Shown here one piece after another: positions 38,294 to 54,618 of a DNA stretch of 64,000 bases. The translations under genes were made by a program, and so were the position numbers. Source of the DNA: Microbacterium sp. 1S1 (lineage in GTDB: Bacteria; Actinomycetota; Actinomycetes; Actinomycetales; Microbacteriaceae); contig NZ_CP043430.1 of the NCBI RefSeq assembly GCF_008271365.1, forward strand, positions 1,178,001 through 1,242,000, in the 5' to 3' direction. Position 1 is the stretch's first letter. Every line of letters begins with the position of its first letter. Below the pieces are notes generated by a model. The model made no database searches. It worked only from the letters and a program-made list of their open reading frames with translations, and was not told where the DNA came from.

Positions 38294-39109
38294 ATGGAGA
38301 CCTCGACGAAGGGCGTCGCCCGACAGAGCCTCGTGATCGCTGCCGCCGTGTTCATGCTGATCGCCGCGGCCATCGGCGCCGGAGCATTCGGCGGTGACTC
38401 CGTCGACGAGCTGCAGAACGGTGCGCTCTCGGCCCAGGGCTCGTACCTCGCCCCCGCGGGACCGGCGTTCTCGATCTGGTCGCTCATCTATGCGGGATTG
38501 CTGGCCTACACCGTGTGGCAGGCTCTCCCCGCGCAGCGTCAGGACGAGCGTCAGCAGGCGGTCGGCGGCTGGATCGCGCTCTCGATGATCCTCAACGGCC
38601 TCTGGCTCGTCACCGCACGCTACCTGACCCTGTGGCTCACCGTGCTCGTCATCGCACTCCTGCTCGCCGCGCTCGCCCGGATCATCGTGCTCCTCGGTCG
38701 CTTCCCCGCCCGCACCCTCGCCGATCGCCTCCTCACGGACGGCGCGAACGGCCTGCACCTGGGCTGGGTCACGATCGCGACGGTCGCGAACATCGCGGCG
38801 TGGCTCACCCAGACGGTTCCGGAGATCGGGGCGGACGCCCCCGAAGTCTGGGCCGTGGGGGTCCTCGTCGTCGTCCTGGTGATCGGCGCCGCATCCGCCT
38901 GGTTCACCGGACGCCTCGCGCCCGCGCTGGCGACGGCCTGGGGCCTGAGCTGGCTCGCGGTCGGTCGCCTCACCGGAGAGCCGGAGAGCGCGCCCACCGC
39001 CGTCACCGCGGTCATCGTCGCCGTTCTGCTGGTCGTCGCCGGCATCGTGGCCATGCTCCGTCGGCGGCGCTCCGCCGGCTCGCACGACCGCGCGCCGCTC
39101 GGTCGCTAG
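38294..39109 (+). CDS. TspO/MBR-like membrane protein
   Basis: The 271-residue protein has about seven hydrophobic helices. The stretch YLAPAGPAFSIWSLIYAGLLAYTVWQ (residues 51-76), with its PAGPAFSIWS motif, is the hallmark of the larger tryptophan-rich TspO-related family, followed by LNGLWLV and HLGWVTIATVANIAAWL. TspO proteins bind porphyrins or hydrophobic ligands in membranes; the role here is unknown. Its stop (TAG) shares bases with the stop of convergent kdpE. Confidence 0.8.
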   Translation: METSTKGVARQSLVIAAAVFMLIAAAIGAGAFGGDSVDELQNGALSAQGSYLAPAGPAFSIWSLIYAGLLAYTVWQALPAQRQDERQQAVGGWIALSMILNGLWLVTARYLTLWLTVLVIALLLAALARIIVLLGRFPARTLADRLLTDGANGLHLGWVTIATVANIAAWLTQTVPEIGADAPEVWAVGVLVVVLVIGAASAWFTGRLAPALATAWGLSWLAVGRLTGEPESAPTAVTAVIVAVLLVVAGIVAMLRRRRSAGSHDRAPLGR

Positions 39110-39777
39110 ACGACGAGCCGGTAGCCCATGCCCGACTCGGTCAGCAGGTGGACGGGCGCAGAAGGCTCCTGTTCGAGCTTCTTCCGGAGCTGGGACATGT
39201 ACAGCCGCAGGTAGCCGGAGTCGGACACCTGCGCACTGCCCCAGATCTCCTTGAGGAGATCTTGCCGGGTGACCAGGGCGCCGGGGTGCCGGGCGAGGTG
39301 CTCCAGCATCCGCCACTCGGTCGGGGTCAGGTGCACTCGGCTTCCCGCGCGGGTCACGGTCTTCGTCGCGAGATCCACCACGACGTCGCCGAACCCGACG
39401 ACCGACTCCCCGTTCGCCACGACCGCGCGTCGGGAGAGCGCTCGGAGCCGGGCCAGCAACTCGTCCACCTGGAAGGGCTTCGTGACGAAGTCGTCGGCGC
39501 CCGCGTCCAGCGCCTCGACCTTGTCCGCCGACCCCGTGCGACCGGACACGACGATGATCGGCACGCTCGTCCAGCCGCGGAGGGCCTGGATCACCTCGAT
39601 GCCCTCGAGCCGCGGCATGCCGAGGTCGAGCATGATGAGGTCGGGATGGCTCTGCGCGGCGGCGGCGATCGCGGCGGCACCGTCGGCGGCCACGACGACC
39701 TCGTAGCCATGTGCGGCGAGCGTGATCCGCAGCGCCCGCACCATCTGGGGGTCGTCGTCGGCGATGAGGAGCTTCAC
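39106..39777 (-). CDS. kdpE: KdpE response regulator
   Basis: The 223-residue OmpR-family regulator has an acidic pocket (ADDDPQ), phospho-acceptor Asp in LIMLDLGMPRLEG (near residue 53), Lys in FVTKPFQVDELLARL, and a winged-helix domain (LTPTEWRMLEHLARHPGALVTRQDLL, LRLYMSQLRKKLE, ESGMGYRLVV). It is translated from an ATGA overlap with kdpD. It should activate kdpFABC when potassium is low or turgor falls, via the direct-repeat site upstream of the operon. Confidence 0.95.
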   Translation of the reverse strand: MKLLIADDDPQMVRALRITLAAHGYEVVVAADGAAAIAAAAQSHPDLIMLDLGMPRLEGIEVIQALRGWTSVPIIVVSGRTGSADKVEALDAGADDFVTKPFQVDELLARLRALSRRAVVANGESVVGFGDVVVDLATKTVTRAGSRVHLTPTEWRMLEHLARHPGALVTRQDLLKEIWGSAQVSDSGYLRLYMSQLRKKLEQEPSAPVHLLTESGMGYRLVV

Positions 39778-42335
39778 TCCATCCCCTCCGTGTCGGAAGT
39801 CCCTGCGGCGAGCGGCAGGGAGATGACCATGGTGAGGCCACCCCCTGGGGTGTCCTCCGGAGTCAGGCTACCGCCCATGCCCTCCGTGAAACCGCGCGAC
39901 AGGGCGAGCCCGAGTCCCAGTCCGGTCGTGTTGTCGGTGTCGCCGAACCGCTGGAAGGGCTGGAAGATGCGGTCGCGCCGCTCCGGGGCGATGCCCTCGC
40001 CACGGTCGATGATCCGGATCTCCGCGCGGTCGCCCAGGCGGCTGCTCGACACGAGGACGCGGCTCCCGGCCGGGGCGTGCCGGTGCGCGTTGGCGAGCAC
40101 GTTCACGAGGACCCGCTGCAACAGCACGGGGTCGGCGTACAGCGGCGGGAGGTCGGGGTCGAGCGCGAGCTCGACGTCCGACGGGCCGAGGGCGAGCTCG
40201 TCCACCGCGGCGAGCACGGGGCCGGCCGCATCGATGCGCGAAGCCGAGACGGCGAGGACTCCCGCTTCGACGCGGCTCACGTCGAGCAGGTCGGTGACCA
40301 GAGTCGACAGGGTGGCCAGGCTCTCGTCCGCCGTCTCCAGCAGCTCGGCGCGGTCCGTGGCCGACAGGCCGTGCGCGCCGCGAAGCCCGCCGATCGCCGC
40401 GACCGCCGAGGCCAGCGGCCGCCGCAGGTCGTGGCTGACGGCCGAGAGCAGGGCGCTGCGTACCTGGTCGGTCTCGGCGAGGGCCTCGGCCTCGCGCGCC
40501 GTCGCCCGCAGGTCGGTGTGCTCGATGGCCGCCGCGAGCTGGGCGACGATCGCATCCAGCAGTCGTCTCTCGGGACCGGCGATCGGCTCGCCGTTGAGCT
40601 CCAGCAGCGCGCGGGGCCCGCCGCCGGTCGTCGCTCCCACCGGGATGGTCGTGGCGCGTCCGTCCGGCACCGGCTCGCCGTCGCTCGCCAGTACGTCTCC
40701 GGACGGGGTGAGCAGCCGCACGCCGCTCAGCCCGAACGCCTCGCGCGTGCGACTGACGAGGGCGAGTACGGCGTTGTCGCCGCGGAGCACGTTGCCCGCG
40801 ACCGCGGCGAGCAACTCGGCCTCGGCGGTCGCTCGCTGCGCGGTCCTGGCGCGGCGGGCGGCCTGGTCGACGATGATGCTCACGAGGATCGCGATGATGA
40901 CGTAGAGGGTGAGGGCGAGCACGTGCAGCGGATGCGCGATCGTGATCGTGAACTGCGGGGCGACGAAGAGGAAGTCGAGGGTGATCCCTGACAGGACGGC
41001 GGCGAACACGGCGGGCCGGATGCCGCCGATCAGGGCGACGACCACCACGAGGAGCTGATAGGCGAGCACCTCCGCCGTGATCGACTCCGGGCTCCGGAAC
41101 GCGAACATCAGCCAGGAGAGCAGTGGGCCGAACACGAGGGCCACGCCGAAGCCGAGTGCCTGTCGTCGCCAGCCCAGCGCCCCGCCGGTGACGCGGGGGA
41201 GCGCGAGCCGGCCGCCGGCCGCGGCGTGGGTGACGATGTGTACGTCGATGTCGCCCGATCGGCGGATGACCTCGGCGCCGATCCCCGGCCCGGTGAGCGC
41301 GGCGGCGAGACGGCTCCGGCGGCTCACGCCGATCACGAGCTGGGTGGCGTCGGCGCCCTGCGCGAACTCCACGAGCGTCGCGGGGATGTCGTCGCCGACG
41401 ACCTGATGGTACGTCCCGCCGAGCGACTCGACGAGGGAGCGCTGCGCGGCGAGCGCGCCGGGGGCCTCACCGCGCAGCCCGTCCTGCGCGGTGACGTGCA
41501 CCGCGAGCAGCTCGCCGCCGGCGGAGCGCGCCGCGATCCTGGCCCCTCGGCGGAGCAGCGTCTCGCCCTCCGGGCCGCCGGTGAGGGCGACCACCACCCG
41601 CTCGCGCGCCTGCCAGGCCCCGGCGATGCCCTGCTCGGCGCGGTAGCTGCGGAGGGCGCTGTCCACCTCGTCCGCGAGCCACAGCAACGCGAGCTCCCGC
41701 AGGGCGGTGAGGTTGCCGAGCCGGAAGTAGTGTGACAGGGCGGCGTCGATGCGCTCCGCGGGGTAGACGAGACCGGCGGCGAGCCGGTCGCGAAGGGTCT
41801 GCGGGGCGAGGTCGACGACCTCGATCTCGTCGGCGGCGCGGACCACGGCATCCGGGATGGTCTCCCGTTGGGCGATCCCGGTGATCTTCTCCACGACCGC
41901 GTTCAGCGACTCGATGTGCTGCACGTTCACCGTGGTGACGACGTCGATTCCCGCGTCCAGCAGCTCCTCGACGTCTTGCCAGCGCTTGGGATTCCGGGAC
42001 CCGGGGGCGTTCGTGTGCGCGAACTCGTCGACCAACGCGATCTCCGGGCCGAGGGCGAGCACCGCGTCGAGATCCAGCTCCGTGAGGGTCACCCCGCGGT
42101 GTGCGTCCTCCCGTCGTGGCACCTCCGGCAGCCCGGTGGTCAGCGCCGCGGTGGCCGCGCGGCCGTGGGTCTCGACGATCGCGATGACCACGTCGCGGCC
42201 CTCCTCGCGGAGTCTGCGGCCCTCGGCGAGCATCTCGAAGGTCTTCCCGACGCCCGGCGCAGCGCCGAGGAGGACGCGCAGCCGACCGCGGCGGTTCCGG
42301 TCCGTCGCGGTGCGCGGCGTCCGCTCTGCGCTCAT
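39774..42335 (-). CDS. kdpD: KdpD sensor kinase
   Basis: The 853-residue kinase has the full KdpD plan: N-terminal KdpD domain with Walker A GAAPGVGKT (24-32), a universal-stress-protein domain near residue 230-340 (VVVALTGGPEGETLLRRGARI), four membrane helices near 385-480, a GAF region, then HisKA (AVSHDLRRPLASAVAAIGG) and HATPase (NVLANAHRHAPAG, GLGLALSRGF). It senses potassium or ionic strength and phosphorylates KdpE. Both ends overlap neighbours by four bases, keeping it in the operon. Confidence 0.95.
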   Translation of the reverse strand: MSAERTPRTATDRNRRGRLRVLLGAAPGVGKTFEMLAEGRRLREEGRDVVIAIVETHGRAATAALTTGLPEVPRREDAHRGVTLTELDLDAVLALGPEIALVDEFAHTNAPGSRNPKRWQDVEELLDAGIDVVTTVNVQHIESLNAVVEKITGIAQRETIPDAVVRAADEIEVVDLAPQTLRDRLAAGLVYPAERIDAALSHYFRLGNLTALRELALLWLADEVDSALRSYRAEQGIAGAWQARERVVVALTGGPEGETLLRRGARIAARSAGGELLAVHVTAQDGLRGEAPGALAAQRSLVESLGGTYHQVVGDDIPATLVEFAQGADATQLVIGVSRRSRLAAALTGPGIGAEVIRRSGDIDVHIVTHAAAGGRLALPRVTGGALGWRRQALGFGVALVFGPLLSWLMFAFRSPESITAEVLAYQLLVVVVALIGGIRPAVFAAVLSGITLDFLFVAPQFTITIAHPLHVLALTLYVIIAILVSIIVDQAARRARTAQRATAEAELLAAVAGNVLRGDNAVLALVSRTREAFGLSGVRLLTPSGDVLASDGEPVPDGRATTIPVGATTGGGPRALLELNGEPIAGPERRLLDAIVAQLAAAIEHTDLRATAREAEALAETDQVRSALLSAVSHDLRRPLASAVAAIGGLRGAHGLSATDRAELLETADESLATLSTLVTDLLDVSRVEAGVLAVSASRIDAAGPVLAAVDELALGPSDVELALDPDLPPLYADPVLLQRVLVNVLANAHRHAPAGSRVLVSSSRLGDRAEIRIIDRGEGIAPERRDRIFQPFQRFGDTDNTTGLGLGLALSRGFTEGMGGSLTPEDTPGGGLTMVISLPLAAGTSDTEGME

Positions 42336-42957: not shown

Positions 42958-45180
42958 TCAGAAGCCGGGGAGGAGGCTGACGAGGAGGTCGATGAGCTTG
43001 ATGCCGACGAACGGGGCGATCACCCCGCCGAGGCCGTAGACGAGCAGGTTCCGCTGCAGGATCTGCGAGGCGCTGGCCGGCCGGTAGCGCACACCGCGGA
43101 GCGCGAGCGGGATGAGGAACACGATCACGATCGCGTTGAAGATGATCGCGCTGGTCACGGCCGAGGCCGGCGAGTGCAGCTGCATGATGTTCAGCGCCGC
43201 GAGCCCGGGGAACACGCCCATGAACATCGCCGGGATGATGGCGAAGTACTTCGCGATGTCGTTCGCGAGCGAGAACGTCGTCAGCGCTCCTCGCGTGATG
43301 AGCAGCTGCTTGCCGATACGCACGATGTCGATGAGCTTCGTCGGGTCGGAGTCGAGGTCGACCATGTTGCCGGCCTCCTTCGCCGCCGACGTGCCCGTGT
43401 TCATCGCCACGCCGACGTCGGCTTGAGCGAGTGCGGGGGCGTCGTTGGTGCCGTCCCCTGTCATCGCGACGAGTCGCCCGCCCTGCTGCTCACGGCGGAT
43501 GAGGTCGAGCTTGTCCTCCGGTGTGGCCTCGGCGAGATAGTCGTCGACGCCGGCCTCAGCCGCGATGGCCTTCGCGGTGAGGGGGTTGTCGCCGGTGATC
43601 ATGACCGTGCGGATGCCCATGCTGCGCAGCTCGTCGAACCGTTCCCGCAGGCCGTCCTTGACGATGTCCTTGAGGTGCACGACCCCGAGGATCCGCGCTT
43701 CGACGGACTCGGTCCCTGAGTCCGTCGAAGGGCCGGAGCCGGTCGAAGGACGCTGCACCGCCACGACGAGGGGCGTCCCGCCGCTCGAGGCGACGTCGTC
43801 GGTGAGGGTCGTGAGCTCCTCGCCCGCGGCCTGCCCGAGCCACGCCGCCACGGCGGAGGCGGCGCCCTTGCGGATCTGCGTGCCGTCGGCGAGGTCGAGC
43901 CCGCTCATGCGGGTCTGAGCGGTGAACGGGACGACCACGGCGTCCGTCGGAGCGGTCACCTGGGTCCCGCGGGCGGCGGCGAGCTCGACGATCGAGGCGC
44001 CCTCCGGTGTCGGATCGGCGAGGGAGGAGAGGGCGGCGGTGCGCAGCAGCTCGTCCGCGTCCACCCCGGTGAGCGGCAGCACCGCGTGGGCGCGACGGTT
44101 GCCGTGGGTGATGGTGCCGGTCTTGTCGAGGAGCAGCGTGGTCACGTCGCCGGCGGCCTCGACCGCACGCCCCGACATCGCCAGCACGTTGCGCTGCACG
44201 AGCCGGTCCATGCCCGCGATGCCGATGGCGGACAGGAGCGCGCCGATCGTGGTCGGGATCAGGCAGACGAGCAGGGCGATGAGGACCGGGATGCTCACCG
44301 GCGACGCGGCGTACGAGGCGATCGGGTTCAGCGCGAGGACCACCACGACGAACACGATCGACAGGCTCGCGAGGAGGATGTTCAGGGCGATCTCGTTCGG
44401 GGTGCGTTGCCGGCTCGCCCCCTCGACGAGCGCGATCATCCGATCGACGAACGTCTCGCCGGGCTTCGACGTGATGCGGACCACGATCTCGTCGGACAGC
44501 ACGCGGGTGCCTCCCGTGACAGCGCTGCGGTCACCCCCGGACTCGCGGACGACCGGGGCGCTCTCGCCGGTGATGGCCGACTCGTCGACCGTGGCGATCC
44601 CCGCGACGATGTCGCCGTCGCCCGGGATCAGCTCGCCTGCGGAGACGACGACGAGATCGTCGCGCTGCAGGTCCGCCGACGACACTGTCTCCGTCGGTGC
44701 TTCGGCGAGCCCAGCGAGCCGCTCCGCGCCCCCCTGGGTCCCAGAGCCGGGGCGCTGGGGCACTGAGCCTGTCGAAGGGCCGACCACCCGCCGCGCCGTC
44801 GTGTGGGTGCGGGTGTTTCGCAGGCTCGCGGCCTGGGCCTTGCCGCGCCCCTCGGCGACCGACTCCGCGACGTTGGCGAAGAGCACGGTCAGCCAGAGCC
44901 AGATCGCGATGCCCCAGGTGAACGCGGCGGGGACGGCGGTGCCGCCGGACTCCGCCGGTCCTCCGAGGAAGGGCTCCGCGATCGCGAGCACGGTCGTGAA
45001 CGCGGCGCCGACCCAGACGAGGAGCATCACCGGGTTGCGGACGAGCGTCGCGGGGTTGAGCTTGCGCAGTGCCCCGGGGAGCGCCTGCACGAGCTGCGCG
45101 CCACCGAACGAGCGCGGCGGCCGGGCGGGGGCGGACGCCGTGGCGTCCTGCTGTTCGGGAGGGGTGGTGAGGAGGGTCAT
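42958..45180 (-). CDS. kdpB: KdpB catalytic P-type ATPase subunit with repeat-derived insertions
   Basis: The 740-residue P-type ATPase has phosphorylated Asp352 in [13 protein letters not shown], actuator motif ITGESAPV (204-211), [17 protein letters not shown] motif ([18 protein letters not shown]) and [23 protein letters not shown] for the membrane core. It transports potassium with KdpA. Two low-complexity inserts are unusual: residues about 134-165 ([18 protein letters not shown]) in the actuator region and about 477-494 ([13 protein letters not shown]) in the nucleotide domain. Both coincide with CTGAGCC-GTCGAAGGG repeats in the DNA. Frame and catalytic sites are intact. ATG 45180 is two bases from the end of kdpA. 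Confidence 0.95.
43698..43750. repeat. Dispersed GTCGAAGG repeat inside kdpB (nucleotide domain)
   Basis: CTTCGACGGACTC (43698-43710) pairs perfectly with GAGTCCGTCGAAG (43718-43730) around GGTCCCT, followed by a second degenerate copy (GAGCCGGTCGAAGGAC). The segment encodes the extra Ser/Thr/Gly residues about 477-494 of KdpB. Confidence 0.75.
44727..44780. repeat. Dispersed GTCGAAGG repeat inside kdpB (actuator domain)
   Basis: The segment ends with CTGAGCCTGTCGAAGGG (44763-44779), preceded by a degenerate mirror-like CCCTGGGTCCCAGAGCCGG stretch. It encodes residues about 134-152 of KdpB, absent from typical homologues. Confidence 0.7.
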
Positions 45181-45182
45181 GG

Positions 45183-46859
45183 TCAGAGTCCTTCGGCGAG
45201 CGGTCCCAGTGCGAGCACGGGGAAGTAGGTGAGGGCCGTGACGACGACGGTCACGGTGAGGAGGAGGCCGACGAACTGCGGCCGATGGGTGGGGAGCGTC
45301 CCGGTGGTGGCGGGGACGCGCTCCTGCGCGGCGAACGACCCCGCGAGGGCGAGCACGAGAACGATCGGCAGGAAACGCCCGAGGAGCATCGCGACGCCAA
45401 GGGCGGTGTTGAACCACGGGGTGTTCGCGGTGAGCCCGGCGAAGGCGGAGCCGTTGTTGTTCGCGGCGGAGGTGAACGCGTAGAGCACCTCGCTCATGCC
45501 GTGTACCCCCGGGTTCAGGATGCTGGTGGACTCCACGTCCTCGCGGATGCCGGGGATCGCGAAGCTCAGAGCGGTACCGCCGAGGACGAGCACGGGGACG
45601 ACGAGGATGTAGAGGCTCGCGAGGGTCATCTCCCGCGGTCCGATCCGCTTGCCCAGCCACTCGGGGGTGCGGCCGACGAGCAGCCCGCCCACGAAGACCG
45701 CGACGATCGCCAGCACGAGCATCCCGTACAGGCCGGAGCCGACACCGCCCGGAGCGACCTCGCCGAGCATCATGTTGAGCAGGGGCATCAGGCCGCCGAG
45801 GGCGGTGTAGGAGTCGTGCATCGAGTTCACGGCCCCGGTCGAGGTCAGCGTGCTCGCGCTGCCGAACAGCGTGGAACCGAGGATGCCGAAACGCTGCTCC
45901 TTGCCCTCCATCGCCGCGCCGGCGAGCTCGGGGGCGGCCCCGCGTCCCGCCAGTTCCAGGGCGGAGAGTGCGGCGAGCGAGGCGAGGAACAGGGTGCCCA
46001 TGACGGCGACGATCGCGTAGCCCTGGCGGTGGTCGCCGACCAGTCGGCCGAACGTGCGGGGGAGCGCGAACGGGATCACGAGGATCAGGAGCACTTCGAG
46101 CAGGTTGGTCCACCCGGTGGGGTTCTCGAAGGGGTGGGCCGAATTGGCGTTGAAGAACCCGCCGCCGTTGGTGCCGAGCAGCTTGATGGCCTCCTGCGAG
46201 GCGACCGGACCGCCGGGGATCGTCTGCGTGCCGCCGGAGACCGTGACGACGTCGGTGAAGCCGTTGACGTTCTGGATCACGCCACCCGCGAGGAGAGCGA
46301 CCGCGCCGATCAGGGCGAGCGGGAGGAGCAGGCGCCCCAGACCGCGGGTCAGGTCGACCCAGAAGTTGCCGATCGTGGCGGAGCCGCGTCGGGCGAGACC
46401 GCGGATGAGGGCGATGGCGATGGTGAGGCCGACTGCGGCGGAGACGAAGTTCTGCACCGTGAGGCCCGCGAGCTGCACCGTGTAGCCCATCGTCTGTTCG
46501 GGCGAGTACGACTGCCAGTTGGTGTTCGCGACGAACGACGCGGCGGTGTTGAACGCGAGTCCCTCCGGCACGGCGGGGAGTCCCAGCGACGCGGGGAGGA
46601 AGGCCTGCAGCCGTTGCAATCCGTAGATGAGCAGCAGTCCGACGAGCGAGAACAGCAGCACGCTGCGGGCGTAGGCGCGCCATGTCTGCTCGGAGCGCGG
46701 GTCGACGCCGATCACCCGGTACAGCCCGCGCTCGACGCGCAGGTCCCGTCCGGAGGTGTACACGTGGGCGATGTAGTCGCCGAGCGGGCGGTAGAGGAGC
46801 ACGAGCACGACCACGACGGCCGTGATCTGGAGGATTCCGTACAGGATCGTCGCGTCCAT
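45183..46859 (-). CDS. kdpA: KdpA potassium-translocating subunit
   Basis: The 558-residue membrane subunit has the family's ten helices and potassium-filter segments: [58 protein letters not shown] and [19 protein letters not shown]. It binds and conducts potassium. Its ATG shares a base with the kdpF stop (TGATG) and its stop is two bases from kdpB, so all parts are translationally linked. Confidence 0.97.
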
Positions 46860-46948
46860 CAGAAGCGCTCCGGGGCGACGAGCGCCGCGACCAGGTAGAC
46901 GACCGCGGCGACGGCGAGGACGGTGGCGAGGATCTCGAAGACGATCAT
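46859..46948 (-). CDS. kdpF: KdpF small stabilising subunit, 29 aa
   Basis: A single hydrophobic helix ([29 protein letters not shown]) matches KdpF, which stabilises the KdpABC complex in the membrane. The sequence [11 protein letters not shown] is the usual KdpF ending. The start overlaps the upstream small gene (ATGA) and its stop overlaps the kdpA start by one base. Confidence 0.9.
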
Positions 46949-47028
46949 GCGCGGTCCACCGCCTTGGCGACGAGGGACACGAGGGCGAACAGCGCCAGGG
47001 TCAGCGCGAGGTAGATGATGTCGAGCAC
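46945..47028 (-). CDS. 27-residue single-helix membrane peptide before kdpF
   Basis: GTG 47028, four bases after the ribosome site GAGG, gives [19 protein letters not shown] plus VAKAVDRA: one membrane helix with a basic end. The stop overlaps kdpF by four bases (ATGA), which indicates a real coupled gene rather than chance. Similar short leader genes occur beside actinobacterial kdpF, as far as I recall; no function is known. It is too short for routine gene callers. Confidence 0.7.
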
Positions 47029-47064
47029 GTCCTCGATCCAACTGCGCCGTCCGGCCGCGGCCGC

Positions 47065-47087
47065 CGATCCTCACGGTTCCCCTACGC
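47065..47087 (-). promoter_or_regulatory. Potassium-regulon motif upstream of kdp
   Basis: The plus-strand sequence is CGATCCTCACGG, TTCCC, CTACGC. It is 19/23 identical to the site at 53454-53476 upstream of the KimA-like gene and lies 36 bases before the first kdp-operon start codon. Its TCACGG and CTACGC units are 11 bp apart, an OmpR-family arrangement, so KdpE is the likely binder. Confidence 0.6.
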
Positions 47088-47198
47088 GGTCCCGCCGAAT
47101 GCATGCGGGTTGCTCACGCCTTCCGCTTCCGACTCGCGCACCGGGTCGCAGACCCGCGCCGGGGGCCCGGTGCGCGCTTTGCAGGGCGGCGACGGCCC

Positions 47199-47210: not shown

Positions 47211-48380
47211 GTGGGGATCAGGAGCATGCGGATCGGCGTCGGCGCGGTGATCGTCGCCGTGCTGGTGGCGGTCGCGCTCGTGTGCGTGCTCACGGGATTC
47301 CTGCCGCGAGCGGACGCCGGTGCTCTCGGGGAGCGGATCGCGCCCGTGCTGGGGTTCGTCGTCGCGATCACGATCGTCGCCGAGCTCGCCCGCGACGCGG
47401 CAGTGTTCGACGTCGTCTCCCAGCGCCTCGCGCGGTGGGGTCGAGGCCGCGTGGTGGTGCTGTGGGCCCTCGTCGTCGTACTCGCGGTGGTGAGCACCGT
47501 GTTCCTCTCGCTTGACACCACCGCCGTGATCGTCACGCCGGTCGTCGTCGTCCTGGCGCAGAGCATCGGCGTCTCCCCGTTGCCGTTCGCCCTGGCCACC
47601 GTCTGGCTCGCCAACACGGCGTCGCTCGCCCTCCCGGTGTCGAACCTCACGAACCTGCTCGCCGCGCAGGGGGCCGGGCTCGGGCCCGGGGCGTTCATCG
47701 CGCTGAGCTGGGCGCCCACGCTCGTGGGGATCCTGGTGCCCGTCGCGATCCTCACCGTCCTGCATCGGCGCACGATCCTCGCCACGTACGCGACGCCCGT
47801 GCCCCGCCGCCCCGCCGACCCCACGCTGTTCTGGAGCGCCACCGGCATCCTCCTGGTGCTGATGCCCCTGCTCGCGCTGACCCCGGACGTGTGGATCCCC
47901 GCCACGGTCGCGGCTCTGGCCTTGATCGGGCTGTTCGCCGTCCGCCGTCGCCATGCCCTGCGCCTGTCGCTCGTCCCGTGGCAGGCGCTCGCGCTCGCCA
48001 CGTCGCTGTTCGTGCTGGTCGAGACCGCGCACGCGCAAGGACTCCTCGATTTCCTGACCTCACCGACCCTGGCCGGCGACTCTCCCGGCGACCTGTTCCG
48101 GCTGGCCGCGCTCGGGGCCGTGAGCGCGAACGCGATCAACAACCTCCCCGCCTACCTGGTCCTCGAACCCGCGGCCGGGGATCCGGCCGCCCTGATGGCA
48201 CTGCTGATCGGCGTGAACCTCGGGCCGCTCGTCACGCCGTGGGCCTCGCTCGCGACGCTCCTCTGGCACCACCGCGTGACGGCGCTCGGGGTGGAGGTCC
48301 GCTGGGGGCGTTTCGCGCTCTGGGGAGTCGTCGCCGCGGTCCCCACCGTCGGCCTCGCAACGCTGAGCCTGGCCCTCTGA
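47211..48380 (+). CDS. ArsB/SLC13-like (ion transporter superfamily) permease
   Basis: The 389-residue protein has about 10-11 helices arranged as two similar halves. Signature stretches are VSTVFLSLDTTAVIVTPVVV, ALATVWLANTASLALPVSNLTNLLAA in the first half and AVSANAINNLPAYLVLEP in the second (the NLPA-type motif of ArsB/NhaD/CitM carriers). It could export arsenite or carry dicarboxylates or Na+; the substrate is unresolved. GTG 47211 is favoured by the -10 box; ATG 47226 is an alternative five codons later. It diverges from the kdp operon. Confidence 0.8.
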   Translation: MGIRSMRIGVGAVIVAVLVAVALVCVLTGFLPRADAGALGERIAPVLGFVVAITIVAELARDAAVFDVVSQRLARWGRGRVVVLWALVVVLAVVSTVFLSLDTTAVIVTPVVVVLAQSIGVSPLPFALATVWLANTASLALPVSNLTNLLAAQGAGLGPGAFIALSWAPTLVGILVPVAILTVLHRRTILATYATPVPRRPADPTLFWSATGILLVLMPLLALTPDVWIPATVAALALIGLFAVRRRHALRLSLVPWQALALATSLFVLVETAHAQGLLDFLTSPTLAGDSPGDLFRLAALGAVSANAINNLPAYLVLEPAAGDPAALMALLIGVNLGPLVTPWASLATLLWHHRVTALGVEVRWGRFALWGVVAAVPTVGLATLSLAL

Positions 48381-51355: not shown

Positions 51356-53416
51356 TCAGGACTCGGACGGCGGCCCGGCGGGGCGGTGCGCGCGGCGGCC
51401 CGCCACCACGACGGGCCGTCCCGCCCGCTCCTGACCCGGCAGCGGGCGGGAGCGACGCCCGTAGATGAGCTCGGACGAGTCGAGCAGCCACGGCACCAGG
51501 GTGATCGACACCCCGTGCACGAGCATGAGCTGGTTCGCGAGACGGCGGGCACGCCGGTTGTGCAGGAAGCTCTCCCACCAGTGACCCACGATGTACTGGG
51601 GCAGGTACACCGTGACGACGGAGGAACCGTGCTTCTCGCGGTACTGCCGGATGAACTGCGTCACGGGCTGTGCGAACGACCGGTACGGTGACTCCACGAT
51701 GACGAGGGGCACCGGCACGAGGTGGTCCGCCCACTCCTGCTGCAGGTGCGCGGCGTCCTCCTGCGAGACGGCGACGTGCACGGCGAGGGTCTTGTCGTGC
51801 TTCGCCGCGATGGCGTAGTCGATGGCCTTCATGACGGGCTTCTGCAGATGGTTCACGAGGACGATGGCGACGTCGCCCGAGGCGCCGAAGCGGGTGGTGT
51901 CGTCGATGGCGATCTCGTGCTCGACGTCGCGGTAGTACCGCTTGACGCCGATCATGAGGAAGGCGAGCACGGGGATGGCGAAGAACACGAGATAGGCGCC
52001 GTGCGTGAACTTCGTGATCGTCACGATCACGAGCACGAGCACGGTCAGCGTCGCCCCGGCGGAGTTGATGAGCAGCCCGACCCGCGCCGAGCGCCGGTCC
52101 GCGGCGCCGTCGCGTGTCGCGGGCGCGGGCTCTCGCAGCACCCGCCGCCAGTGCCGCACCATGCCGATCTGGCCCAGGGAGAAGGAGACGAAGACGCCGA
52201 TGATGTAGAGCTGGATCAGCGTCGTCAATCGTGCCTGGAACACCACGAGCACGGCGATCGCCGCGATCCCGAGGAGGATCATGCCGTTCGAGAACACGAG
52301 CCGGTCGCCGCGGGTGTTCAGCGACTTCGGGGCGTAGCCGTCGCGGGCGAGCACAGCGCCGAGCAGCGGGAAGCCGTTGAAGGCGGTGTTCGCCGCGAGC
52401 AGCAGCACGCAGGCCGTGGCCGCCTGCACGATGAAGAACGGGATGCTGCCGCCGCCGAACGTGGCCGCGGCGATCTGCGCCATGAGGCTCGGCTGCGGGG
52501 TCGTGCAGTCGAAGCCGATGAGGTCGCAGGGGTTCTCGGCGTAGTGCACGCCGGCGATGAGGGCGAGGGCGGTGAGGCCGGAGAACAGGCAGATCGCGAT
52601 GGTGCCCATGAGGACGAGGGTGGATTGCGCGTTGCGCACCTTCGGTGCCCGGAACGCGGGAACCCCGTTCGACACCGCCTCGACTCCGGTCAGCGCGGAG
52701 CAGCCGCTCGAGAACGCGCGGAGGATGAGGAGCAGCACGGCCGCCTGGCTCAGGCTCTCGGCCTGCACGGCGAAGTCCGCACTGGAGGCGACCGGAGCGT
52801 CGCCGAGCGCCGTGCGGACGAGCCCGCTGACGATCATGACGCCGACCGAGCCGATGAACACGTACGTGGGGATGGCGAACACGAGCGACGCCTCGCGCAC
52901 GCCGCGGAGGTTCACGATGATGATGAGCACGACGAAGCCGACCGCGAGCTCCACGCGGAGCGGGTCGAGACCCGGCACCGCCGAGATGATGTTGTCGACG
53001 CCGGACGCCACCGACACCGCCACCGTGAGCACGTAGTCGACGAGGAGGGCCGCGGCCACGATCACGCCGGGGACCTCTCCGAGGTTCTTGGACGCGACCT
53101 CGTAGTCGCCGCCGCCGGACGGGTAGGCCTTGATGAGCTGTCGGTAGCTCAGCACCACCACGAGCAGCAGCACCACGACCGCCGCCGCGACGAGCGGCGT
53201 GAAGGACAGGAAGGTGAGGCCGCCGATGAGCAGGATCATCACGAGCTCCTGGGGCGCGTAGGCCACCGAACTCAGTGCGTCGGAGGCGAAGATCGGCAGC
53301 GCCATGCGCTTGGGGAGCAGCTGCTCGTCGACCTGTGCGCTCGTCAGCGGTTCGCCGAGGAGGATGCGCTTGGCGCGCGGCGGCGCGTCCGGGGTCGGCT
53401 TCGTTTGTTCTGACAC
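51356..53416 (-). CDS. KimA-like APC-superfamily potassium permease
   Basis: The 686-residue protein has about 12 helices (residues 40-490) and a roughly 170-residue cytoplasmic tail. MALPIFASDALSSVAYAPQELV, PSGGGDYEVASKNLGE, ALLVDYVLTVAVSVASGVDNI and ANTAFNGFPLLGAVLARDG match the family of B. subtilis KimA (YdaO) and M. tuberculosis Rv2690c, the latter next to Trk genes. High-affinity K+ uptake is therefore likely; amino-acid transport is the alternative. GTG 53416 is chosen by TAGTGT (53425-53430) eight bases upstream. The 23-bp motif shared with kdp lies 37 bases upstream. Confidence 0.82.
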   Translation of the reverse strand: MSEQTKPTPDAPPRAKRILLGEPLTSAQVDEQLLPKRMALPIFASDALSSVAYAPQELVMILLIGGLTFLSFTPLVAAAVVVLLLVVVLSYRQLIKAYPSGGGDYEVASKNLGEVPGVIVAAALLVDYVLTVAVSVASGVDNIISAVPGLDPLRVELAVGFVVLIIIVNLRGVREASLVFAIPTYVFIGSVGVMIVSGLVRTALGDAPVASSADFAVQAESLSQAAVLLLILRAFSSGCSALTGVEAVSNGVPAFRAPKVRNAQSTLVLMGTIAICLFSGLTALALIAGVHYAENPCDLIGFDCTTPQPSLMAQIAAATFGGGSIPFFIVQAATACVLLLAANTAFNGFPLLGAVLARDGYAPKSLNTRGDRLVFSNGMILLGIAAIAVLVVFQARLTTLIQLYIIGVFVSFSLGQIGMVRHWRRVLREPAPATRDGAADRRSARVGLLINSAGATLTVLVLVIVTITKFTHGAYLVFFAIPVLAFLMIGVKRYYRDVEHEIAIDDTTRFGASGDVAIVLVNHLQKPVMKAIDYAIAAKHDKTLAVHVAVSQEDAAHLQQEWADHLVPVPLVIVESPYRSFAQPVTQFIRQYREKHGSSVVTVYLPQYIVGHWWESFLHNRRARRLANQLMLVHGVSITLVPWLLDSSELIYGRRSRPLPGQERAGRPVVVAGRRAHRPAGPPSES

Positions 53417-53448
53417 GTCCGGCGACACTACGCCGGGCGACGCCGTCC

Positions 53449-53513
53449 TCACGCGATCCTCACGGAATCCCTACGGCCCGGTGGCTCTCCCTCACGGAAT
53501 CCTCACGGCCAGC
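53449..53513. promoter_or_regulatory. 11-bp direct-repeat array between KimA-like and VanZ genes
   Basis: TCACGCGATCC (53449-53459) and TCACGGAATCC (53460-53470) are contiguous 11-bp repeats, followed by a weaker CTACGGCCCGG unit. A second pair lies at 53492-53502 (TCACGGAATCC) and 53503-53513 (TCACGGCCAGC). Eleven-base direct repeats are typical of OmpR/PhoB-family binding; TCACnGn-N4-TCACnGn also recalls the mycobacterial PhoP site. The subset 53454-53476 matches the kdp promoter motif. Confidence 0.7.
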
Positions 53514-53529: not shown

Positions 53530-54618
53530 GTGGGGGATCAGGTGGTTCTGGGCATCATCGCCGTGGCGATCGGGCTGGCCGTCGGCGTCGTCCTCTTCGT
53601 GCCCTTCGTCGCGATCAGCTACCGGCGACGAGGGCGGCTCACGCTGGGTCGTACGCTGCTCTGGCTCGCGGCGCTCGTCTACTTCTGGGCCATCTGGACG
53701 TACACGCTGCTGCCGCTCCCCGATCCGGACGCCATCCGCTGCGTGGGGGCGATCACCGACCCGATGTCCGTCGTGCGGGACGTGCGGAAGGCGTTCGCCG
53801 CTCCGGGGAGCCCGCTGAGCCAGCCCGGCCTGCTCCAGCTCGTGTTCAACGTGCTGCTGTTCGTCCCCCTCGGGGCCTTCCTCCGCGTGCTGGGCGGCCG
53901 TGGTCTCCCGACCGCCCTCGTCACCGGGTTCGGGCTTTCGCTGCTCGTCGAGACTACGCAGCTCACCGGCGTCTGGGGCCTGTACCCGTGCGCCTACCGC
54001 TTCTTCGATGTGGGCGACCTGATGACGAACACGACCGGAGCCGTCGTCGGGTCGGTCCTCGCCCTGATGGTGCCACGGTCGCTGCGCGGGCTCCAGGCCC
54101 GCCCCGATGCCGACGCGCCCCGCCCCGTCACCCGTGGACGGCGGGCGTTGGCGATGCTCTGCGACGGGCTCGCGAACGGCTTCGTCGTCGCCGCCGGTGG
54201 TGTCGCCGTGCAGCTCTGGCTCGCATACGTCGTGCAGGATCGTCAGGCCGTGCTCGACGGCACCCTCGCCAGCACGGTCAGCACGGTCGTCGCCTGCGCG
54301 CTGTGGCTCATCGTCATCCTCGCCACCGGGAGGTCGGTCGGCGATCTGGCCGTGCAGCTCCGGTACACCGGTTCCCGTCTGCCGATCGCGCTCAGCCGGT
54401 CGCTGCGGTGGGCGGGTGGCATCGGCGGGCTCACGGCGCTCGGGCTGCTCGGCGGCGTGTTCGGCACGCTCTCCTCGGTGTTGATCCTCGTCGCGATCGT
54501 GCTGCTGTTCACCACGCGCCACGGCCGCGGTCTCCCCGGACTCCTCTCCGGCCAGCACCTGGAGGACGCCCGCGTCACGCTCTCGAATCCACAGGCGTTT
54601 CCGATCACGGATCGATAA
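53530..54618 (+). CDS. VanZ-like membrane protein with RDD-like C-terminal half
   Basis: The 362-residue protein (1089 nt, GTG start) has a VanZ-like first half of five helices (WAIWTYTLLPLPDPD, FNVLLFVPLGAFLRVLGG, LVETTQLTGVW, FDVGDLMTNTTGAVVG) and an RDD-type second half (RRALAMLCDGLANGFVVAAG, RSVGDLAVQLRYTG). VanZ-like proteins are linked to envelope and teicoplanin resistance; RDD proteins are small transporters or antiporters. It diverges from the KimA-like gene over the direct-repeat array and may share its regulator. Confidence 0.8.
   Translation: MGDQVVLGIIAVAIGLAVGVVLFVPFVAISYRRRGRLTLGRTLLWLAALVYFWAIWTYTLLPLPDPDAIRCVGAITDPMSVVRDVRKAFAAPGSPLSQPGLLQLVFNVLLFVPLGAFLRVLGGRGLPTALVTGFGLSLLVETTQLTGVWGLYPCAYRFFDVGDLMTNTTGAVVGSVLALMVPRSLRGLQARPDADAPRPVTRGRRALAMLCDGLANGFVVAAGGVAVQLWLAYVVQDRQAVLDGTLASTVSTVVACALWLIVILATGRSVGDLAVQLRYTGSRLPIALSRSLRWAGGIGGLTALGLLGGVFGTLSSVLILVAIVLLFTTRHGRGLPGLLSGQHLEDARVTLSNPQAFPITDR

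Follow-up and report, generated by a model that had tools for sequence, protein, structure and literature searches.

KdpE is known from the literature as the regulator of kdpFABC and kimA as a c-di-AMP-controlled gene, and a wider KdpE regulon goes beyond both descriptions. Escherichia coli KdpE (PDB codes 4kny and 4kfc) has an OmpR/PhoB fold, and its half-sites are 6-bp direct repeats with 5 bp between them (PMC3264566). In Mycobacterium smegmatis, KdpE is a positive regulator of kdpFABC, and its site was narrowed by footprinting and EMSA to the 22-bp CCGTAAAGAAACCATCAAGGCC (PMC5401905). The partner kinase, KdpD, is built of modules: an N-terminal domain that phosphorylates KdpB at Ser162, inhibiting the pump, and a C-terminal part that acts on KdpE. 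Among the species with an annotated Kdp pump that were surveyed, the serine-kinase domain is preserved in almost all versions of KdpD (PMC11018627). Our literature search, which left subscription papers mostly uncovered, found neither KdpE control of kimA nor a regulon in which KdpE governs both kimA and trkH.

We analyzed a 64,000-nt stretch of a Microbacterium genome (the window) in which a kdp locus and a kimA gene both lie on the minus strand. The kdp locus includes kdpA (45183..46859; TIGR00680 above cutoff), a kdpF-like frame of 29 amino acids assigned from sequence and position (46859..46948), and a 27-codon frame with a GTG start that overlaps kdpF (46945..47028) and is possibly leaderless. 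Neither the 27-codon frame nor the kdpF-like peptide, which is very short, matched NCBIfam. The 27-codon frame begins right after the likely kdp -10 element, and its start, GTGCTCGACATCATCTAC, is common to several relatives, while others have another frame at this place. The first-pass annotation had placed kdpDE in the window, and both genes are there on the minus strand. The kdpD gene (39774..42335) encodes a full-length protein in which an N-terminal PF02702 domain is joined by Usp, DUF4118, HisKA, and HATPase_c; the kdpE product (39106..39777) has Response_reg and Trans_reg_C domains, and its closest solved relative is E. coli KdpE (4kny). NF007793 and NF007820 were the best named NCBIfam matches of KdpD and KdpE, though at 483 bits versus a curated cutoff of 1123 and 228 bits versus 325, respectively; we therefore base both assignments on domain content, a shared operon with kdpFABC, and the nearest relative of solved structure. 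A CitMHS/ArsB-like permease gene (47223-48380) is divergent from kdp.

The kimA gene (51356..53416) encodes a 686-residue protein with an AA_permease_2 domain. Its only solved relative was KimA of Bacillus subtilis (6s3k), a close sequence relative aligned over residues 15 to 643 (E = 6.5e-120), essentially full length, and on this evidence the permease is KimA, a predicted potassium transporter. Its closest named relatives are from Microbacterium. The B. subtilis kimA gene is under a c-di-AMP riboswitch (PMC11018627), whereas no Rfam family reached threshold between positions 44000 and 56000 of the window. A VanZ-like gene (53530-54618) is divergent from kimA.

The first-pass annotation had described a 23-bp motif shared by the two promoters. 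Positions 47065-47087 (CGATCCTCACGGTTCCCCTACGC) and 53454-53476 (CGATCCTCACGGAATCCCTACGG) indeed carry the same base at 19 of 23 positions, and the distances given for them are correct, the GTG of kdp (47028-47026) being 36 bases away and that of kimA (53416-53414) 37 bases. Read in gene orientation, the motif consists of two units of an 11-bp direct repeat, CGTAGGG-N3-CCGTGAGGATCG. The 11-bp period is that of E. coli KdpE sites, but the half-sites there are AT-rich (TTTATA/TTTACA), and no kimA target is described in the accessible part of that work (PMC3264566). The pattern printed in the first-pass annotation, which has 22 letters, matched the window without mismatch exactly twice, at the kdp and kimA sites, and no third site was found at up to 3 mismatches within the 64,000 nt. 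Two matches were seen in 0 of 100 shuffles, a result limited by the derivation of the pattern from the two sites themselves.

At kdp, the main putative KdpE box (GCGTAGGGGAACCGTGAGGAT; 47067..47087, minus strand) had a matrix score of 32.1, which is partly circular because kdp promoters were the training set of the matrix; that of kimA, CCGTAGGGATTCCGTGAGGAT (53456..53476, minus strand), scored 34.8 with a matrix that had no kimA promoter in its training. Five 11-bp units are present in the kimA promoter, where an overlapping third repeat unit lies on the start-codon side (53445..53465; score, 20.4) and a second box lies 32 bp upstream of the main one (53488..53508; score, 19.4), both on the minus strand. 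The kdp promoter has its box and a degenerate second copy identified by eye, GCGTGAGCAACCCGCATGCAT (47099..47119, minus strand; below 12 bits in the matrix scan), so that the upstream copy is 32 bp from the main box at both promoters; many of the 46 kdp promoters that we inspected have a comparable copy at the same distance. Sites above 12 bits in the matrix scan of the whole window were confined to these two promoters. By eye, a plausible -10 hexamer follows the box after 25 bases in each case (TTGGAT at 47036..47041 for kdp and TAGTGT at 53425..53430 for kimA, minus strand), and the GTG codon follows after another 7 bases at kdp and 8 at kimA. With start codons this close to the -10 elements, leaderless transcripts are likely, in contrast to the kdp mRNA of M. 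smegmatis, for which a 120-base leader is reported (PMC5401905). In relatives such as G088, G028, G012, and G011, the forward box of kimA is followed by a reversed one, TCCTCACGGAATCCATGCG, before the -10 element is reached, so that boxes point toward one another in this part of the genus.

To follow the motif across the genus, we used 149 Microbacterium genomes, of which 118 have KimA, 105 have KdpA, 108 have PF02702 (107 over the cutoff), and 114 have a KdpE ortholog at an E value of ≤1e-58. Upstream regions of 112 kimA and 99 kdpA genes were analyzed, 6 of the 118 kimA genomes and 6 of the 105 kdpA genomes being dropped for lack of a usable gene start. The genus matrix was trained on the 99 kdp promoters alone. 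All 99 kdpA upstream regions had a best site of ≥16.5 bits, a circular result since they are the training set; within the genus, a site precedes kdpFABC wherever the operon is present. The same matrix scored 50 of the 112 kimA upstream regions at ≥13.5 and the remaining 62 at ≤2.4, against a maximum of 11.2 among 2240 simulated regions. The putative kdp box is thus common to kimA in part of the genus: the conservation in relatives on which the first-pass annotation had staked its proposal holds before 50 kimA genes and fails before 62. Because 50 of these 62 boxless regions are in KdpE-bearing genomes, the link between kimA and KdpE is not general in the genus. In the drafts G069 and G127, the kdp box was present and KdpE was not found.

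Outside the genus, the matrix was applied to 26 kdp promoters of other genera in the order. It scored beyond all 100 simulations at 6 loci, five of which have a second-best site 32 to 33 bp upstream, and it did not recognize the other 20 at that level, among them the locus of the only further genus from the family of Microbacterium. Among named kimA loci, 29 of 80 have the box (one, L382, begins inside kimA and so cannot reveal one), and no box was found at the kimA loci labeled Plantibacter, Leifsonia, Humibacter, Labedella, Mycetocola, and Compostimonas. One record has kimA and kdp genes of the Microbacterium type under the title Planococcus sp. APC 4015, which looks wrong.

We also searched whole genomes for the motif. 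In the genome that contains the window (3.4 Mb, one contig), a refined consensus had three matches at ≤3 mismatches, namely, kimA (0 mismatches), kdp (2 mismatches), and one within a reading frame (3 mismatches), versus one match for the reversed control. The kimA and kdp sites were the two best, and the genome-wide random scatter that would have counted against the motif was not seen. This result is that of the refined-consensus scan; of an earlier list of 97 hits, 60 were scored, having been picked by eye. The third match, at 2490488, is inside a 689-amino-acid frame and was taken as chance. When 58 genomes were searched openly with a shortened motif, 47 matches were obtained, versus 8 for the reversed control. 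With ≤1 mismatch, all 16 matches were at kdp, kimA, or kdpD'E. One match with 2 mismatches, in G019, lay approximately 40 bases ahead of a trkH frame; among the 31 two-mismatch matches, those looked into were the kdp, kimA, and trkH loci and one in G011, which adjoins an Lrp-like frame with no potassium gene and was taken as chance.

A further scan covered 33 relatives of our own choosing, split by whether a close KdpE is present. At ≤3 mismatches, matches numbered 27 in the 12 genomes with a close KdpE (control, 5) and 5 in the remaining 21 (control, 16). All 17 matches at ≤2 mismatches fell in the 12 genomes with a close KdpE, and all were at potassium genes (9 at kimA, 4 at kdpD'E, 2 at kdp, and 2 at trkH); G129 had 3-mismatch matches only, and a 3-mismatch match in G080 had no recognized transporter nearby. 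Upstream of trkH, scanned for the better-scoring type, boxes were found at 3 of 30 loci, that is, in 3 of 24 KdpE-bearing genomes and 0 of 6 others, and the trkH promoter of G014 has two box copies 32 bp apart. The single TrkH of the genome containing the window, which is of the other type, was covered by the genome-wide pattern alone.

Genomes without kdpA offer a natural experiment. Here and in the tree tests below, presence of kdpA was scored by KdpA search of the genomes, not by availability of an upstream region. No kdpA was found for 21 of the 112 kimA rows. In the nine of these with a boxed kimA (G010, G014, G017, G080, G091, G118, G122, G129, and G170), KdpE was always present, and it was absent from 11 of the 12 with a boxless kimA. 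The exception, G146, is an 88% complete draft that has KdpE, and its kdpDE stretch has no box above 12 bits. Box and kdpDE also share gene clusters. In G122, G170, and G080, kdpD' and kdpE directly follow kimA; a pair of suf-type genes (named from sequence) intervenes in G017 and G118, and frame ends suggest the same insertion in G010 and G091. An additional box precedes kdpD' in G017, G118, and G091, and in G014 kdpD'E lies 20 kb off behind a box of its own. One genome with an ordinary kdp locus, G092, has a kimA-kdpD'-kdpE-trkH cluster in addition. Microbacterium murale, M. sp. Bi121, M. allomyrinae, and M. sorbitolivorans have the box, a short KdpD, and KdpE, with no kdpA within the locus stretch examined; M. 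hydrocarbonoxydans P30 has the box and a full-length KdpD and KdpE adjoining kimA, likewise with no kdpA within the locus stretch. Among the 21 rows without kdpA, the kimA box accompanies retained KdpE, which points to KdpE as its probable reader.

On the KimA tree, the minimum number of changes was 8 for the box, 10 for KdpE, and 17 for kdpA. Seven supported pairs differ in KdpE, and the box agreed with it in 0 to 2 of them (usually 1) and disagreed in 0. The kdpA-less rows gave three supported pairs; all three agreed in 149 of 200 pairings, and two of the three did so in the remaining pairings. The association between box and KdpE is uniform in direction, with too few independent events for significance. 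A plain Fisher test over the 112 rows gave a P value of 5e-4 that ignores relatedness, and we do not rely on it, as independent events on the tree are few.

The kdpA-less genomes also differ in KdpD itself. Among KdpE-bearing genomes, PF02702 was present in all 102 with kdpA and absent from 10 of the 12 without it, G129 and the draft G146 keeping the domain. Eight of these ten have a close KdpE ortholog, and the other two, G032 and G061, have KdpE-like proteins at 53 to 54% identity. Thus, in 8 of the 9 kdpA-less genomes with a boxed kimA (G010, G014, G017, G080, G091, G118, G122, and G170), PF02702 had no match and KdpD is not of the full domain set; such a short KdpD is new relative to the literature that we found. 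The histidine-kinase half is retained and the serine-kinase half is absent: DUF4118, HisKA, and HATPase_c were detected in seven of the eight (the G118 protein fell outside the scan), the G017 protein also retains Usp, and in G080 the segment between the membrane part and the kinase is absent too. Between PF02702 and kdpA, 3 to 4 of 5 supported independent pairs among KdpE-bearing rows agreed and 0 disagreed; Fisher's test gave 1e-12 with relatedness ignored. The published survey sampled species with an annotated Kdp pump (PMC11018627), whereas no kdpA was found beside the short forms described here. Absence of PF02702 where no kdpA was found fits the account in which KdpB is the target of this domain, and loss of that target would be the reason.

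Several lines of evidence bear on which regulator binds. The first-pass annotation had proposed a single activator, most simply KdpE, and the comparisons favor that choice, since a matrix derived solely from kdp promoters recognizes 50 of 112 kimA promoters, the motif resembles the mapped KdpE site of M. smegmatis, KdpE in genomes lacking kdpA occurs almost exactly where kimA is boxed and often in the same gene cluster, and the open motif search reached the promoter of a TrkH-type transporter. The M. smegmatis site, also one for an actinobacterial KdpE, matches the genus kdp consensus at 15 of 21 bases without gaps; its matrix score, 2.5, is far under those of the genus sites, and random 21-mers equal it at 5-7.5e-5. 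A difference is that kdpFABC, with one site, is the sole target described for M. smegmatis in the available part of that study (PMC5401905). Taken together, the motif at kdp and kimA is very probably a KdpE binding site.

Beyond what the first-pass annotation had claimed, the comparisons suggest a wider regulon and a trimmed KdpDE. In this genus, KdpDE seems to control potassium uptake more broadly and to have been trimmed several times in genomes that lack the pump. We put a probability of roughly 0.6 on the reading that KdpDE is a general K+-uptake regulator acting on kdp, kimA, sometimes trkH, and itself, which after loss of kdpFABC becomes dedicated to kimA, its KdpD shedding the N-terminal serine-kinase domain because the substrate KdpB is gone. 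Under K+ shortage, KdpD would phosphorylate KdpE, and KdpE molecules would then line up head to tail along the 11-bp repeats, immediately before the -35 regions of both kimA and the kdp operon. Bound KdpE would activate these weak promoters, with transcripts starting at or just before the GTG codons, so that a single two-component system could turn on the P-type pump and the KimA symporter together. In relatives, the putative box also stands before a number of trkH and kdpDE genes. In genomes with no kdpFABC, a kimA box goes along with a kept KdpDE, and KdpD is then usually devoid of the N-terminal domain that is reported to act on the pump.

KdpE might bind kimA and repress it, or act at kdp alone. 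In M. smegmatis, Trk genes are reported to be downregulated at low K+ in the wild type and mutants (PMC5401905), but the orientation of the box and its 25-base distance to the likely -10 element are equal at kdp and kimA, the kdp -10 element is nonconsensus, and M. smegmatis KdpE regulates kdpFABC positively. We regard repression or action at kdp alone as improbable. Direct repeats of 11-bp period are used by many OmpR/PhoB-type regulators, and nine proteins of the genome containing the window match KdpE at an E value of ≤1e-25, so that a different member of the family might occupy both promoters while KdpE merely co-occurs. Use of direct repeats by the family is documented (PMC3264566), yet the KdpE paralogs, 35 to 39% identical in the rows listed, are present also in genomes without KdpE and box, and both the likeness of the motif to the mapped M. 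smegmatis site and the common clusters of box and kdpDE speak against such a regulator, which we consider quite improbable. Since both intergenic regions are divergent and part of the relatives have a reversed box between box and kimA, the boxes could instead serve the VanZ-like gene on the kimA side and the CitMHS/ArsB-like permease gene on the kdp side; this is very improbable, however, as the box keeps its orientation and its distance from the start of kimA or kdp, and boxes elsewhere precede kimA-kdpD'E clusters, kdpD'E, and trkH. Chance similarity, arguable from the two sites in the window alone, has a negligible probability, being excluded by conservation in 50 relatives and opposed by the scans of the 33 relatives and of the genome containing the window.

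If the general-regulator reading is correct, the DUF4118 membrane part and the histidine kinase would suffice for transcriptional K+ sensing. The natural short KdpD proteins provide a means of asking which part of KdpD senses potassium. The kdpA-less genomes without the serine-kinase domain also put to the test, independently and through evolution, the claim made in 2024 that this domain acts on KdpB.

G092 and G140 have two KdpE copies each; the copy nearer kimA is 82% and 93% identical, respectively, to KdpE of the window, and the second, with the kdp operon, is 67% and 65% identical, the kdp boxes there being among the weakest. In G061 (L452:3088-6900) and G032 (L451), a KdpDE-like pair comprises a 362-amino-acid kinase with DUF4118 and a regulator 53 to 54% identical to KdpE, and it adjoins a divergent 643-amino-acid membrane-type protein with no Pfam or PDB match. 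Between the pair and the gene for the 643-amino-acid protein, G061 has a box-like site of 17.5 bits.
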